Assembly: GCA_949825025.1 (NCBI GenBank)
Contig: OX463778.1
Location: 6,029,142-6,093,141, forward strand
Source: Siphlonurus alternatus
Taxonomy: Eukaryota > Arthropoda > Insecta > Ephemeroptera > Siphlonuridae
DNA: 64,000 nucleotides
Direction: 5' to 3'
Position 1 is the first letter of the stretch, and the number at the start of each line of letters is the position of its first letter. The notes under the pieces were generated by a model. That model made no database searches. It worked only from the letters and a program-made list of their open reading frames with translations, and was not told where the DNA came from. Shown piece by piece: positions 16,495 through 23,440 of this stretch. The translations under genes were made by a program, and so were the position numbers.

Positions 16495-16853
16495 AAAAGC
16501 GGGCGTCCTGTTAGAGGACTGGAAGGGGTTGTTAGTCTTATTCCACCTATAAAGCTCGTTTAGAGTTGTATAAGAAGGGTTCCCTTTTTAGATCTGTGTC
16601 TGAGTGGAATAAGTTGCCTTGTAATGTAAAACTATGTGACGTTAAACAATTCCCTTCTCTTCTTAAAAATTATTATATTGTTAAAAATAGTTAGTAATAT
16701 AAGTTTGACTCTGGCTTATATTGCTTTAGCATGTTATGTATGTTTGCAGGTTAGCAGCCACTTACTGTGATATGGTGCCTTAGTGCCTTGCTTGCTACCT
16801 TCACCCATTATTTTTGTTCATAATGTGTGTATCTTGGGTGAAATAAATAAAAT
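16495..16853 (+). pseudogene. 5'-truncated LINE 3' end (ORF2 C-terminus + 3' UTR)
   Basis: From about 16549 to 16692 one frame reads KARLELYKKGSLFRSVSEWN, then KLPCNVKL and so on, to a stop at 16692. This is the FRSVSEWNKLP-type C-terminus typical of the last part of non-LTR retrotransposon ORF2. Just upstream the frame is broken (SLIPPIK lies in another frame), which indicates decay. A 3' UTR of about 150 bp follows and ends in an A-rich AAATAAATAAAAT tail, as expected for a target-primed insertion. It is a different family from the intact element downstream, whose ORF2 C-terminus is unlike this one. Confidence 0.65.
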
Positions 16854-17439
16854 ATTTCATATTTTTTATCTTATTTGAATGATATTTTATATAATAAGAA
16901 AATGGAATAGTATTTGCATTCATTAATATTAATTTCAACCAATATTTTATGTCACGTTTAACTTTAATGTGCATTCTTCTCTTTTTGAGCAATGTAACAA
17001 TTTTGAAAAACTACAATCCTGCATTTTTATTATATATTTTTTTAGGCATTTTATTTACTGCATGATTCAGAGCATCTGACAAGAAATTATAATATATTAA
17101 TACAAGTTTCAACAATTCCGAAACCATTACATCAAAACATATAGTACATATAAATAATATAATTATAATAAATAATGAATTAATCAAATCTTCCCCCTTA
17201 ATTTAAATAAATGCAAGAAAAATCCGACAAAATAATTATTATTTGCTTGTTTTTATGTAAAATTAGAATAACAGTCCTAGATCACCAATAACGCAAAGAG
17301 TTTGTTTATCCAATTTAAAGAAGCACCTTTCATATATATAGCATTCAAAATATTCAAATTATTATTTTCATTTTTCCAATAGCAAAAAGGTGTCATAATA
17401 ACATATGTAATAACATTATTTGTTTTTAATTGTTTATAA
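16854..17439. other. AT-rich intergenic DNA
   Basis: No gene recognised. The exact 5' boundary of the following retrotransposon is not visible. Confidence 0.4.
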
Positions 17440-17659
17440 AAACAAGGTAGGTGGCAGCACCTGAGAGCTTAACTACAATATTTTCACTGCTCCGTAATTT
17501 TTAAAGATTAACCTTTTTATCTATCATTTAATTAAAAAGAAAGTCTGTTCATCGGAAAGTTGAAGTTTTTTTCTATTAAGTGATACATTACTACTAAGTG
17601 TCCTGTGCATTGAACTTTAAATATAAAGGTGTGATAAATATTCTCTTGAGAACAACATC

Positions 17660-19996
17660 ATGACGGACCTACGCTCCATGCGTGCTACACCTCAGTTCTG
17701 CTCTCCGCTCGTACCACACTGGCCGCCACCTGCTAGAACTACACCGGAGGTTTTTAACTCACAATTTATTAATTATGATAAAAATAATTCTGATATACAT
17801 ATGTCCAATGAAAGCCTATCAAATGATCTGACTGTACATCCAATGTACAAATTAATTCAACATAATATTAAGGACTTATTTACTGACTTTAGAGAAGAAA
17901 TTAAATGCACTATTAAATTAATGTTAAATGAAAGAAATGGAATTTCTTCTGCAAATAACTTTAATAATGAGGGAAATTCAAATCATCAATGTCATATACA
18001 AACAGCTGATTATGACAGGTCACCAGTTCAATTCTCGCGACCTTGGAGGACGGCTGGTTACACAAAACAACGCCCACCTCAGCCGACGTCGTTCACTAGA
18101 GTGCCACAGCAGCAGCAGCAATCACGCCAGCAGCAGCAGCAACAATCTGAGCAATCACGCCAGCAGCAGACACGCCGGCAGCACGTTGTAAGTCAGTATC
18201 AACCTCGTCGCCCGCTCCAACACCAACTGAGCGCTCAGCGACCGCACCCTACCCAGCTGCCGCGCCAAAGCCAGGGTGCCCAATTGCGCCCCCCAAGACC
18301 TCCTTATAATCCGTGGGGTGCGACAGTACCAACATCAAACTCATTTTCAGTACTACAACATATTAATAATGAGTCTTTTCCGACTTTACATCAGAAAAAT
18401 ACCAATAACCATAATATAAAAAGAAAACACCAAAATTTCCGTTTCATTGAAAAGAAAGGAAATTTGTTTGACGCACCACCAGGCACATCCTACGCCCACT
18501 GCGTTGATAAAACATTTAAACAAGGACGTGGAGTTGCAACTCAATTTAAAAAAAAACATGGACAAACCCCTTTTTTAAAGAGTCAACTCAAAAATACTGG
18601 TGAAGTAGCTGTTTTATCTTCAGATGACAGTTTTATTTTCTACTTAGTTACTAAATCTGTCCATAACAGCTATCCTGACCACTCAAATATACTACTTGCA
18701 TTAAAAAATTTAAGAAATATCTGTGAGATTTTAAGTATAAAAAAACTCGCAATTCCTCGTTTAGCATGTGGCAGAGACGGTTTCAACTGGTCTACTATAA
18801 AACAAGACATTATTTCAGTGTTCAAAGATCTTGACATTGAAATTGTTGCTTATTATGGATGGAAGACATTAGCAAAGAAAGTTGCAAGTAATGATGATGA
18901 AACAGCTGTTAAAGAACTCTTTGAGGAATCAGCCCAATCTACTCTAGCAAACGTCATTACCGCTAGGGCCCCTCCTTCTAATAACCTGGCGGTCCTTGTA
19001 AGTTCCGGGCAATGCCAGACCTCTACCTTGCGAGAGAGTACCCGCCCCTCAATTGTCACGCCTGACATAGTGAGGGTGGAGGGACTGCCAGTGCCAGCCA
19101 CGAAGGAGCAGATGTCTAATACCCGGGGCGAGAAGTCAGGCCTCGCTCAGGTGAACGACGGTACCACCCCGGGCGAGGAGTCAGGCCTCGCTTCGGTGAA
19201 CGACGGTACCACCCCGGGCGAGGAGTCAGGCCTTGCTTCGGTGAACGACGGTACCACCCCGGGCGAGGAGTCAGGCCTCGTTTCGGTGAACGACGGTACC
19301 ACCCCGGGCGAGGAGTCAGGCCTCGCTTCGGTGAACGACGGTACCACCCCGGGCGAGGAGTCAGGCCTTGCTCCGGTGAACGACGGTACCACCCCGGGCG
19401 AGGAGTCAGGCCTCGCTTCGGTGAACGACGGTACCACCCCGGGCGAGGAGTCAGGCCTCGTTTCGGTGAACGACGGTACCACCCCGGGCGAGGAGTCAGG
19501 CCTCGCTCCGGCGAACGACGGTATTGCCCCGAGTGAGGAGTCAAGTCTTGTTTTGGTAAACAATAGTTTGCCTGAATCAGGACCACCCTTACCAGATCCT
19601 GTATGTTCTCTTGAATTGAATCAAGATATTATAGATCTGAACTCATTACATCCAAGACTCAAAGCTTTTTTACTAACGATTTTAGATAATAAATTCCAAT
19701 TTACAAATGATCTATTAAAAAATGATGAAACCGCTGCTAAGAAAAGTGCAATTAATTCAGAAAAATCAATTAATGAAATTTCATCTGTTGTCTCACCATC
19801 CATTATTAGTAAAAATGATACTATTAATGATAATGTTTTGAGTTCAAATGTTGATAATTTTAATCTGGCATCTCAATTGAAATCCCCCATTAAAAATTCT
19901 CAGGAAGATACACAATCTTCCCCTGTGAGATCACGGCTCCGTGCCAGTACACTAAACAGTATCTCCACCAAATTGCCCAACAAAAAAAAAACTTAA
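17660..19996 (+). CDS. LINE ORF1 protein with TARG1/OARD1-like macro domain
   Basis: 778 aa. Layout: N-terminal region with a possible helical stretch (about 55-95); a Gln/Arg/Pro-rich segment (about 150-220) with QQQQQQ runs; a macro domain at about 262-403; a linker; about ten 15-residue repeats GEESGLASVNDGTTP (490-639); a Ser/Asn-rich tail ending NKKKT. The macro domain matches the TARG1/OARD1 pattern: GNLFDAPP (cf. GDLF), AHCV, GRGVATQFKKKHG, GEVAVL, YLVTK, PRLACGRDGFNW. K332 (in VTK) and D373 (in GRDG) align with the TARG1 catalytic Lys84/Asp125 and keep the same 41-residue spacing. TARG1 removes mono-ADP-ribose from Glu/Asp; activity here is inferred. No CCHC knuckle, RRM or esterase motif was seen, so the RNA-binding part is unclear. 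The first ATG in the open frame was chosen. ORF1 ends in a TAATG overlap just before ORF2. Confidence 0.85.
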   Translation: MTDLRSMRATPQFCSPLVPHWPPPARTTPEVFNSQFINYDKNNSDIHMSNESLSNDLTVHPMYKLIQHNIKDLFTDFREEIKCTIKLMLNERNGISSANNFNNEGNSNHQCHIQTADYDRSPVQFSRPWRTAGYTKQRPPQPTSFTRVPQQQQQSRQQQQQQSEQSRQQQTRRQHVVSQYQPRRPLQHQLSAQRPHPTQLPRQSQGAQLRPPRPPYNPWGATVPTSNSFSVLQHINNESFPTLHQKNTNNHNIKRKHQNFRFIEKKGNLFDAPPGTSYAHCVDKTFKQGRGVATQFKKKHGQTPFLKSQLKNTGEVAVLSSDDSFIFYLVTKSVHNSYPDHSNILLALKNLRNICEILSIKKLAIPRLACGRDGFNWSTIKQDIISVFKDLDIEIVAYYGWKTLAKKVASNDDETAVKELFEESAQSTLANVITARAPPSNNLAVLVSSGQCQTSTLRESTRPSIVTPDIVRVEGLPVPATKEQMSNTRGEKSGLAQVNDGTTPGEESGLASVNDGTTPGEESGLASVNDGTTPGEESGLVSVNDGTTPGEESGLASVNDGTTPGEESGLAPVNDGTTPGEESGLASVNDGTTPGEESGLVSVNDGTTPGEESGLAPANDGIAPSEESSLVLVNNSLPESGPPLPDPVCSLELNQDIIDLNSLHPRLKAFLLTILDNKFQFTNDLLKNDETAAKKSAINSEKSINEISSVVSPSIISKNDTINDNVLSSNVDNFNLASQLKSPIKNSQEDTQSSPVRSRLRASTLNSISTKLPNKKKT
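19127..19576 (+). repeat. 45-bp minisatellite inside ORF1 (about 10 units)
   Basis: Nine units of exactly 45 bp (19127-19531) plus one degenerate unit (19532-19576), all in frame. Differences fall mainly at Ala/Val and Ser/Pro/Gln positions (GLAS, GLVS, GLAP). The tract is far more GC- and CpG-rich than the rest of the element. Long antisense open frames here merely mirror the repeat. Confidence 0.97.
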
Positions 19997-22900
19997 TGTT
20001 CAGGTTCACTCAGCCCCATGTAATATTAAAATTCTTCAGCTTAACTTACCAGGCCTAAAAAATAAATTACCAAAATTTGAGTATTTTCTTGAAATGGTTG
20101 ATTGTGATATAATTATATTATGTGAACATGGGCTGAATGAATCTGAAATTATAACAATAAATTTTAAAAATTTTATGATAGTTTCATATTACTGTAGAGA
20201 TATTCAAAAATGTGGGGGAGTAGTAATTCTATCTCGTAAAGGTTCAAATATAAATGATATTAAAATAAAATCCATTGAATCAGTTTTTGAATGCTGCATA
20301 GCGAAATTAGTAATTAACAATACAACAAACATTTATTTTGCTTCTATATATCGCCCACCTAATATATCTAGAGTGATGAAAAAAATTCAGAATTTTGACA
20401 ACACAGAAAATAATATAAAACCATTCTTAAAAGAATTTGAAATGTTATGCAAAAAATTAATTAAATACTGTAAAAATAATGATGATTTTTTTATTATTGC
20501 GGGTGACGTAAATCTTAATTTATTTATTGATGATGCAAATGTAATTTTATATAAAGATATACTGGACTCATACAAGTTGGAAATTGTTAATAGTTCCGCT
20601 ACTAGAGAAACAATGAAAACGGCTACTTTAATTGATCATATTATTAAAAGTACATCTGCTATTAATACTAATTATAAAACTGAAAAAACAACTCTGTCGG
20701 ACCATAACTATACTATAGTCACAATAACATTAAATAACTCGAAGAACATTGATAAAATACAAGAAAAACAATTTTATTATAAACGAATATTTGACAAATG
20801 CAATTTAGATAATTTTCTGCTCCTATTAATTCGTGAAGAATGGAATGATTTATTAAATCCTGATCTCAATTCAAATGAGAGATGGTCAAAATTTCTTGAA
20901 ATTTTTATTTATCATTTCAACGAGGCTTTTCCTGTTGTTAAAAGAAAAATTTCAAGTAACAAAAATAAACCTTCCTGGATACTCAATAACCCCCATCTTT
21001 ACGAACAAGGGATTTCTTTAAAACGCTTACACTATGATGTAAAATTTACTGACCCAAATTTAGAGTCTACTTATAAAAAAGAAATGAAATCTTATAAACA
21101 AAATATGGCCACCGCTAAATTTAAAGAGAATGACCATGAAATAAAAGGAGCTAATAATAAAATTAAAGCTACGTGGAATATAATTAATAAAGAATGCAAA
21201 ACAAAGAAAACAAATGTTAATAATAAGAATAATTATGAATTATGTATAAATAGTGTAACGATTACAGACCCCAAACTAATTTGCAATTTATTTAATAATT
21301 TTTTTGTCAAGACAATTGAAAATATAATAACAGAAAAATTTCCTTTTAATTATTCTAATACTTTAATTATTGTCGATTCTGATAAAAGTAAAACGAAATT
21401 AAATTTTAGTTCGATAGACCCGATTTATATTTTAAATCGAATGAAATCCCTTCCTAATAAGTATGCAGCTGGCCCAGACGAAATACCATATACTGTTGTA
21501 AAATATTGTGCTTCTGTTTTGTCTGTCCCTTTATCTAATTTAATTAACCATTCAATATCAGATGGTATATTTCCTGATTGTTTAAAGGATTCTAAGATTT
21601 ATGCAACTCATAAAAAAGGCCCAACTTTCATTATTGATAATTACAGACCAATATCAAATACATCTGTTTTTGGCAAATTATTTGAGAATACATTAGACGA
21701 TCAAATTACGGATTATCAAACAGAAAATCATTTAATTGCTCCCTGTCAACATGGATTCTTGAAAGACCGTTCTACTGATACAGCACTATTTGATCTTTTA
21801 AGCCACGTTTATATGGCAATAGATAATAAACTATTTTGCGTTGCAATATTTTTTGATTTATCTAAAGCGTTTGATAGTCTAAATAAAGATGTATTATTGA
21901 ATAAATTTGATAACATGGGAATAGGAGTTTCGAGTCGTAATCTATTAGATTCATATCTAACTAACAGACAACAATATGTTGAATTAAATTCAAATTCTAA
22001 CGGCCAAAATATTACATATAAATCAGACAAATTACCGATTACACTTGGAATTCCTCAAGGAGGAAAAATGTCAGCCACATTGTTTAATACAGGAACAAAT
22101 GACTTATCAGATCATGTCAAGAATGCGGTATTAGTAAAGTATGCTGATGATATTACAGCTATAATCACAGCAGAAGCCGAAGATGAATTAATTCGTAAGA
22201 TTAAACTTACTATTGAAGAGGTACATACATGGTGTACAAATAATAAGCTAATATTAAATTCAACTAAAACCGAATACATCCAATTTCATTCCCCTAGACA
22301 AATCCCTTTGAATAGTTATTTGTTGCAATTAGCCGGGAAAACAATTAAAAGAGCAGAGTCTGTTAAGTTTCTTGGTCTACACATTAATGAAAGTTTGGAT
22401 TGGTCTTTACATGTAAATGCGATTTGTAAGAAGATAAATTCGGCCAATTTTATGTTATATACAATCAGGAATCATGTATCTCATGAAACCTTGCTAACCA
22501 TATATTATGCGTATGTTTATCCACATTTGGCATATGGCATAATAAATTGGGGATGTAAATCGGAACTATTGAATCGATGTTTTGTTTTGCAAAAGAGAGC
22601 ACTTAGAACGATTTTAAGAATACCAAAAGGACAGTCGTGTGTTTCACATTTTAAGGCTAATAAAATGTTAACTGTCCCTTGCATTTATATTTTAAATTGT
22701 GCCTCATTCAAAAAAAATCATCCAAATTTTTATGTTCAGAATGATGGCTATCATGACTATAATACTAGGAATAAATCGAATGTAGTTACTGAAAGACATA
22801 ACACACAATTTTTCAAAAACTGTGCAATGTATCAAACAGCAAAATTTTATGAATTTTTACCAGCATGTTTGAAAGAAATAAAAACCAGTAAACTTTTTCG

Positions 22901-22997
22901 CACAAAATTAAAGAATGTATTGATCAATAAAGAGTTTTACTCTATTAAAGCTTTTGAGAGTAATAAAATGTCTGAAAAAGTATTATCAGGATTATAA
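19956..22997 (+). CDS. LINE ORF2: APE endonuclease + reverse transcriptase
   Basis: 967 aa from the first ATG (20094), but the open frame reaches back to 19956. The endonuclease's first strand (KILQLN, catalytic-type Asn codon at 20043, 17 residues before that ATG) lies upstream of it. Endonuclease motifs: ILCEHG (Glu), YRPPN, AGDVNLN (D138, N140), LSDH (D203, H204; numbered from the 20094 ATG). RT motifs: [43 protein letters not shown] (D588), [19 protein letters not shown] (Y683, D685, D686), NSTKTEY, FLGLHI. No RNase H domain or C-terminal zinc knuckle is visible. It would nick target DNA and prime reverse transcription there. The start is unresolved because the frame differs from ORF1 by +1 and the nearest stop-start ATG is in the third frame. 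Confidence 0.9.
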
Positions 22998-23440
22998 AAT
23001 AAACAAAATTATAAATTTACATATACATTGTATTGACTGATATATATATATGTATGTATATGTATATATACATATATGTATGTGTGTGTATATGTGTATG
23101 TGTATGTATATATATATATATATGTATATATGTGTGTGTGTGTGTGTATGTATATATGTATATATATATATGTATGTATATATATATATGTATATGTATA
23201 TATATATATGTTCCACATAAACTAAAATTTATCAGTATTAATGGTGACTTTGGCTTGTATTTTGTTTTTATTATTATTGTCAGTGATTGTGTTTGATAGT
23301 GTTAAATAACTTATGTAAATGTGTTTAAGTTTGATGTTTTTATGTTGTATTTTGTCCAATTTTGACTTGAACATATGTTTGTCTTGTACAACCAAAAAGA
23401 AGTTCCAAAATAAAAATAAATAAATAAATAAATAAATAAG
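22998..23440 (+). other. LINE 3' UTR and tail
   Basis: Follows the ORF2 stop. It holds a TA/TG-rich microsatellite (23039-23210), about 200 bp of unique sequence, and an AAAT-repeat tail (23408-23439) marking the 3' end. Confidence 0.7.
23039..23210. repeat. (TA)n/(TG)n compound microsatellite
   Basis: Mixed TATATG, TGTGTG and TATA units within the LINE 3' UTR. The Tyr-Ile ORFs over it on both strands are artefacts. Confidence 0.95.

Follow-up and report, generated by a model that had tools for sequence, protein, structure and literature searches.

Across 448 elements of the Jockey superfamily, the first open reading frame (ORF1) of long interspersed nuclear elements (LINEs) has been sorted into types I to V, with RRM, CCHC, PHD, and esterase domains (PMC4120745). 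In ZfL2-1, a member of the CR1/L2 LINEs with a Type IV esterase ORF1, the N-terminal part of the protein dimerizes, RNA binding is attributed to an arginine-rich motif, and the esterase has activity (PMC3905857), and in insect Jockey/TRAS LINEs, a superfamily 1 helicase of viral origin has been captured and kept in ORF1/ORF2 (PMC5563155). Here, we analyzed a 64,000-nucleotide stretch of the genome of Siphlonurus alternatus (contig OX463778.1, positions 6,029,142 to 6,093,141 of the forward strand; hereafter, the window), which contains a full-length LINE whose ORF1 carries a macro domain of the type found in TARG1 (OARD1, C6orf130), one of the ALC1-like ADP-ribose hydrolases. TARG1 cleaves ADP-ribose off Asp/Glu, O-acyl esters, and phosphate ends of nucleic acids (PMC7050489).

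Like Jockey-superfamily elements, this is a two-ORF LINE with a putative apurinic/apyrimidinic endonuclease (APE)-type ORF2 and with ORF1 exchange between lineages (PMC4120745). Its ORF1 is laid out like that of ZfL2-1 (PMC3905857): a helical N-terminal part precedes a basic linker of low conservation and one enzyme domain, and no RRM was found. The enzyme, however, is a macro domain of the TARG1 type, behind which lies a long tail containing an acidic repeat, and no esterase was found. As with the Jockey/TRAS helicase, a foreign enzyme domain appears to have been captured and kept, although the enzyme is a different one. The domain shares its fold, best sequence match, and catalytic Lys/Asp pair with TARG1; whereas TARG1 is a small host protein, the domain described here lies within LINE ORF1s of approximately 600 to 790 codons. 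The main text of PMC4120745 contains no word starting with “macro” or “ADP-ribose,” and none of the papers listed in the literature searches describes, in its title or the opening of its abstract, a macro domain in a LINE, a negative that falls short of proof. Judged by those searches, this would be a new ORF1 type and the first instance known to us in which a LINE has adopted an ADP-ribose eraser of cellular origin.

The TARG1-type macro domain of ORF1

The element and the features that define it are the following:

about 17452/17453–23439, + strand: full-length LINE, with its 5′ end at 17452/17453 (GGCAGCACC...) and an (AAAT)n-type tail at its 3′ end
17660–19996, + strand: ORF1, 778 aa, an open frame as translated
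18437–18868, + strand: TARG1-type macro domain, ORF1 residues 260–403 (Pfam, PDB, profile, and fold)
18653–18655, + strand: codon of K332, equivalent of TARG1 Lys84 (alignments)
18776–18778, + strand: codon of D373, equivalent of TARG1 residue 125 (alignments)
19956–22997, + strand: ORF2 frame, 1013 codons, with APE-type endonuclease motifs and a reverse transcriptase (RVT_1; motifs in the near-identical copies L009–L011)
21609–22385, + strand: reverse transcriptase domain, ORF2 residues 552–810 (Pfam RVT_1, E 1.8e-30)

An initial annotation of this DNA had placed a 778-aa ORF upstream of a reverse transcriptase ORF and had read in it a TARG1-like macro pattern with a Lys and an Asp at the catalytic spacing of TARG1; each of these readings was borne out. 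Human TARG1 was the PDB sequence match of ORF1 (E 1.3e-26), and a 16-row family profile compared with the PDB matched TARG1 at 4.5e-50, DarG at 1.1e-15, and macroH2A and PARP14 at about 0.1. The predicted fold likewise ranked TARG1 first and DarG next (Foldseek and VIA-align, with a model of moderate confidence), and the refuting outcome named in the annotation, a lack of any significant macro-domain hit or fold match, did not occur. The Pfam Macro model itself scored ORF1 at E 3.4e-4 and 21.0 bits, just below its curated cut-off of 22. K332 and D373 align with the Lys and Asp of TARG1, and the 2 residues are 41 positions apart in each protein; PMC7050489 gives Glu125 for TARG1, whereas the TARG1 structure sequence matched here has Asp at residue 125. 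Across 17 LINE macro rows, identity to human TARG1 is 32% to 45%. By sequence and predicted fold, the macro domain is shown to be homologous to TARG1, and the PDB and profile E-values rule out a chance resemblance.

Distribution, constraint, and history of the domain

A genome-wide search with the macro domain (163 residues) as the query, in which 150 of 315 candidates were scored and counts are lower bounds, returned 46 matches that are 100% identical over the whole domain, the window copy among them, and 66 with at least 99% identity over the whole stretch; the remaining matches descend stepwise to 37%. An internal stop is present in 4 of the 150. Matches are not equivalent to copies, as at least 1 copy was apparently split into two and 1 match is a candidate host exon. 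We selected 20 stretches nonrandomly across the identity range (L009–L028) and added 3 others (L029–L031). ORF1 with the macro domain is open in all 20, and 17 of them have a single open ORF2 frame of more than 900 codons, the frame being interrupted in L012, L026, and L027. In L030 and L031, ORF1 is followed by an interrupted ORF2, so that endonuclease/reverse transcriptase frames follow ORF1 at 22 LINE loci, in 17 of them as one open frame. The annotation had raised the prospect that other copies would lack the domain; the genome-wide matches and the 22 loci carry it.

Three loci selected from the matches with a macro domain identical to that of the window (L009, L010, and L011) have both element ends in common with the window copy and are 99.5% to 99.8% identical across approximately 6 kb in the four-copy comparison. 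The LINE copies are dispersed in the genome, and the 3′ tail is common to the 4 compared copies. The domain occurs across divergent subfamilies as well as in numerous recent, nearly identical copies, and the LINE family is large and recently active.

The one stretch that has no LINE ORF, L029, resembles a host TARG1 exon, with 50% identity to human TARG1 and 41% to the window domain; in the candidate exon (L029:1926-2426), the domain is preceded by a possible splice acceptor, and the first exon of the gene was not found.

Outside this genome, a 710-aa protein from the Logan data, P0002, is an ORF1 of the same kind end to end, with 54.6% identity over 685 aligned residues, rising to 74.7% in the macro domain and 62% over residues 1–90. 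P0002 is known from its protein sequence, and the LINE evidence comes from one genome and one outside protein. The wider protein search that yielded it (7996 candidates scored, E ≤ 1e-5) otherwise returned only P0003 and P0004. The former, an 830-aa protein of the beetle Leptinotarsa decemlineata, has a TARG1-like domain preceded by a long, charged N-terminal stretch and is probably a host gene, and the latter is an unplaced protein. None of 21 candidates passed in a protein search with the macro domain alone. Neither IMG/VR, when scanned with the macro domain, with ORF1 alignment A1, and with ORF2, nor the prokaryote genomes that were scanned yielded a confirmed relative.

Both members of the catalytic Lys/Asp dyad of TARG1 are retained in all 20 LINE ORF1s (15 distinct) and in 22/22 rows of a wider alignment (18 LINE and 4 other rows, with 5 near-identical copies omitted), and both belong to the 17 invariant columns among 16 macro domains. 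We estimated the ratio of nonsynonymous to synonymous substitution rates (dN/dS) by the pairwise NG86 method in 9 chosen pairs. In the macro domain, the ratio was 0.046 to 0.236 in 8 pairs (one further pair was saturated) and at most 0.12 in 7 of these 8, compared with 0.29 to 0.93 in the linker (9 pairs), 0.21 to 0.56 in the N-terminus (9 pairs), 0.16 to 0.53 in residues 651–700 (8 pairs), and 0.077 to 0.311 in ORF2 (7 pairs with an intact ORF2). Judged by these ratios, the macro domain is under purifying selection, varies less than the remainder of ORF1, and is far more constrained than the linker; on the whole, its constraint appears about equal to that of ORF2, and the linker and the repeat region appear to drift.

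In the macro domain trees, LINE rows fall on one side, weakly (support 76/78, and 60/67 in the tree of the 22-row alignment, in which P0004 was grouped with cellular rows without evidence of its nature). Since this support is weak, a single capture of the domain by LINEs is allowed, not shown. ORF1 and ORF2 histories differ in several subfamilies, and comparison of L012, L018, L020, L024, L025, L027, L028, and L030 indicates whole-ORF1 exchange between subfamilies; reticulate ORF1 evolution is already known (PMC4120745). The ORF1 of L020 is 57% identical to that of L018 and 34% to that of L009, and its ORF2 is 49% and 70% identical, respectively. L027 has an ORF1 like that of L028 (51% over 442 residues) and a reverse transcriptase like that of L030 (55%), which belongs to a very distant reverse transcriptase group.

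Remaining regions of the element

Outside the macro domain, the following features were recognized:

17840–17935, + strand: ORF1 residues 61–92, a predicted long helix and possible coiled coil (AlphaFold2 model of very low confidence)
18011–18424, + strand: ORF1 residues 118–255, a Gln/Pro/Arg-rich basic linker with a net charge of +16
19121–19561, + strand: in-frame 45-nt minisatellite inside ORF1, with acidic NDGTTPGEESGLASV-type units
19982–19991, + strand: ten consecutive A at the ORF1/ORF2 junction, shortly ahead of the ORF1 stop (junction comparison)
22998–23439, + strand: 3′ untranslated region with an AT-rich microsatellite, plus the tail (four-copy comparison)

The linker (residues 118–255) may bind RNA, and residues 481–640 have a net charge of −27. 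Matches shifted by 45 nt revealed such a repeat also in L016, L017, L022, and L023. No SGNH esterase was found in full-length P0001 (Pfam, E ≤ 1) or in 13 ORF1 parts that start shortly ahead of the macro domain and continue to the ORF1 end (E ≤ 0.01). RRM, CCHC, and PHD domains were absent from full-length P0001 (Pfam, E ≤ 1), the one protein whose N-terminal part was scanned, and a CCHC pattern occurred in none of 22 ORF1s.

The ORF2 frame of the window overlaps ORF1 in the +1 frame relative to it (junction at 19956–19998) and lacks a Met ahead of the endonuclease motif, and the element therefore does not simply contain 2 ATG-started ORFs. Among the 17 copies with an open ORF2, the overlap is +1 in 14 and −1 in 3 (9 and 3 of 12, respectively, with near-identical copies counted once). 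No Met precedes the endonuclease motif in 16 of the 17; the other copy, L024, did not match the motif pattern and has a Met at codon 45. In 15/17, the 40 nt preceding the ORF1 stop contain a run of at least 5 A, the exceptions being L018 and L019. The out-of-frame overlap, lack of a Met, and A-runs together suggest programmed frameshifting or non-AUG starts at ORF2. Checks of the 17 open frames with motif patterns found E, GD.N, SDH, and YADD/FADD in all 17, LN in 16, and Y..P in 15; Pfam gave no endonuclease match at E ≤ 1.

The AT-rich microsatellite of the 3′ untranslated region (window positions 23040–23215) varies among near-identical copies. Short AT-rich matches at the element ends were considered as a possible target-site duplication, and none was convincing. 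Inspection by eye suggested that positions ~16500–16870, just 5′ of the element, might represent the 3′ terminus of a further LINE. An Rfam scan of the window gave no matches at gathering scores.

Proposed role of the domain and competing explanations

We consider it fairly probable that a LINE ORF1 took in a TARG1-class macro domain that has been kept under selection and brings an active ADP-ribose hydrolase to the ribonucleoprotein and the target. The ORF1 protein would self-associate through its N-terminal helix and bind the element RNA through the basic Gln/Arg-rich linker, and an active mono-ADP-ribosyl hydrolase would thereby be carried into the ribonucleoprotein and to the nicked target. 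There, ADP-ribose would be removed from acidic residues in proteins of the element or the host, or else from DNA or RNA, the marks having been added by PARP-type enzymes that sense the nick, single-stranded complementary DNA (cDNA), or foreign RNA; silencing, repair, or blocked DNA synthesis would then no longer halt integration. Both the activity of the domain and its reversal of host ADP-ribosylation for the element are what we infer.

Several points weigh against this proposal. PARP2 reportedly facilitates human L1 retrotransposition/integration, and removal of ADP-ribose would therefore be costly at some step. The invariant Lys and Asp could serve tight ADP-ribose binding alone, and because TARG1-type enzymes act on several substrates, the real substrate cannot be read from the sequence. 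The macro domain model has a mean predicted local distance difference test score (pLDDT) of 66, with the catalytic-Asp loop below 50, and the AlphaFold2 model of the full ORF1 (mean pLDDT 33) is too poor for use. As for selection, several dS values are above 1, and the macro stretch frequently has a higher dS than the linker; part of the dN/dS contrast between the two stems from this, although the macro stretch has the lower dN as well. For L013/L015, the closest pair, the macro domain value (0.236) is not below that of the N-terminus (0.211).

A possible, if tentative, alternative concerns nucleic acids: working like DarG or TARG1, the domain would strip ADP-ribose from cDNA, nicked target ends, single-stranded DNA, or LINE RNA ends and so clear adducts that would stop DNA synthesis. 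LINE copying exposes nicks and single-stranded DNA, as is well established. TARG1 can substitute for DarG in cleaving ADP-ribose from thymidine in DNA, for which Lys84 is required (PMC8501950), and on single-stranded telomeric DNA, PARP1 adds ADP-ribose and TARG1 clears it (PMC11102865). DarG, an antitoxin with a macro domain of the same class, is the second-best match in sequence and fold after TARG1 and the best NCBIfam family for ORF1 (E 1e-9) and P0002 (E 3.3e-11); however, the scores of 38.1 and 43.0 bits, respectively, are far under the curated cut-off of 250, so that DarG membership was rejected, and no DarT was found in ORF1, P0002, or ORF2, the proteins scanned with NCBIfam. Net charge was considered as a sign of DNA binding and rejected, since the LINE macro domains (+3 to +11) overlap human TARG1 (+6) and show no clear difference from it; the candidate host exon has a charge of −3. 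It is rather doubtful that a eukaryotic retrotransposon family has its own DarG/TARG1-like eraser of nucleic-acid ADP-ribose on new cDNA, nicked target, or LINE RNA. If true, such an eraser would let a mobile element counter the marking of integration intermediates by PARP-type enzymes, and bacterial toxin-antitoxin systems and phage counter-defense would have a parallel in eukaryotes.

An unlikely explanation is that the domain acts away from the target site, in the cytoplasm or nucleus, and frees host proteins of silencing or antiviral defense from ADP-ribose. It would follow the example of viral macro domains, which are described as countering PARPs, and in mammals, L1 is silenced through mono-ADP-ribosylation of KAP1 by SIRT6 (PMC4695847). 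Against this explanation, KAP1 and interferon are known as vertebrate systems. More improbable still is a domain that binds ADP-ribose without hydrolysis and guides the ribonucleoprotein to PARP-marked breaks or chromatin: the ALC1-like class does include readers as well as erasers (PMC7050489), yet the catalytic Lys and Asp are invariant even at 37% to 44% identity to the window domain, where most other columns have changed. A chance insertion of host TARG1 into one LINE copy, or an assembly artifact, for which the candidate host exon in the same genome might speak, is practically excluded, being refuted by the 150 scored matches, which are spread over many contigs and subfamilies, the common element ends, and the occurrence of P0002 in another data set.

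The role of the LINE ORF1 protein is a long-open question, and ADP-ribosylation reportedly can both help and hinder L1. With its conserved, built-in domain of the ADP-ribose hydrolase type and its many near-identical copies, this natural LINE family offers a direct genetic test of ADP-ribosylation in retrotransposition, and the TARG1-type ORF1 points to a tool of DNA-damage and defense signaling having been adopted by a mobile element for its own use.
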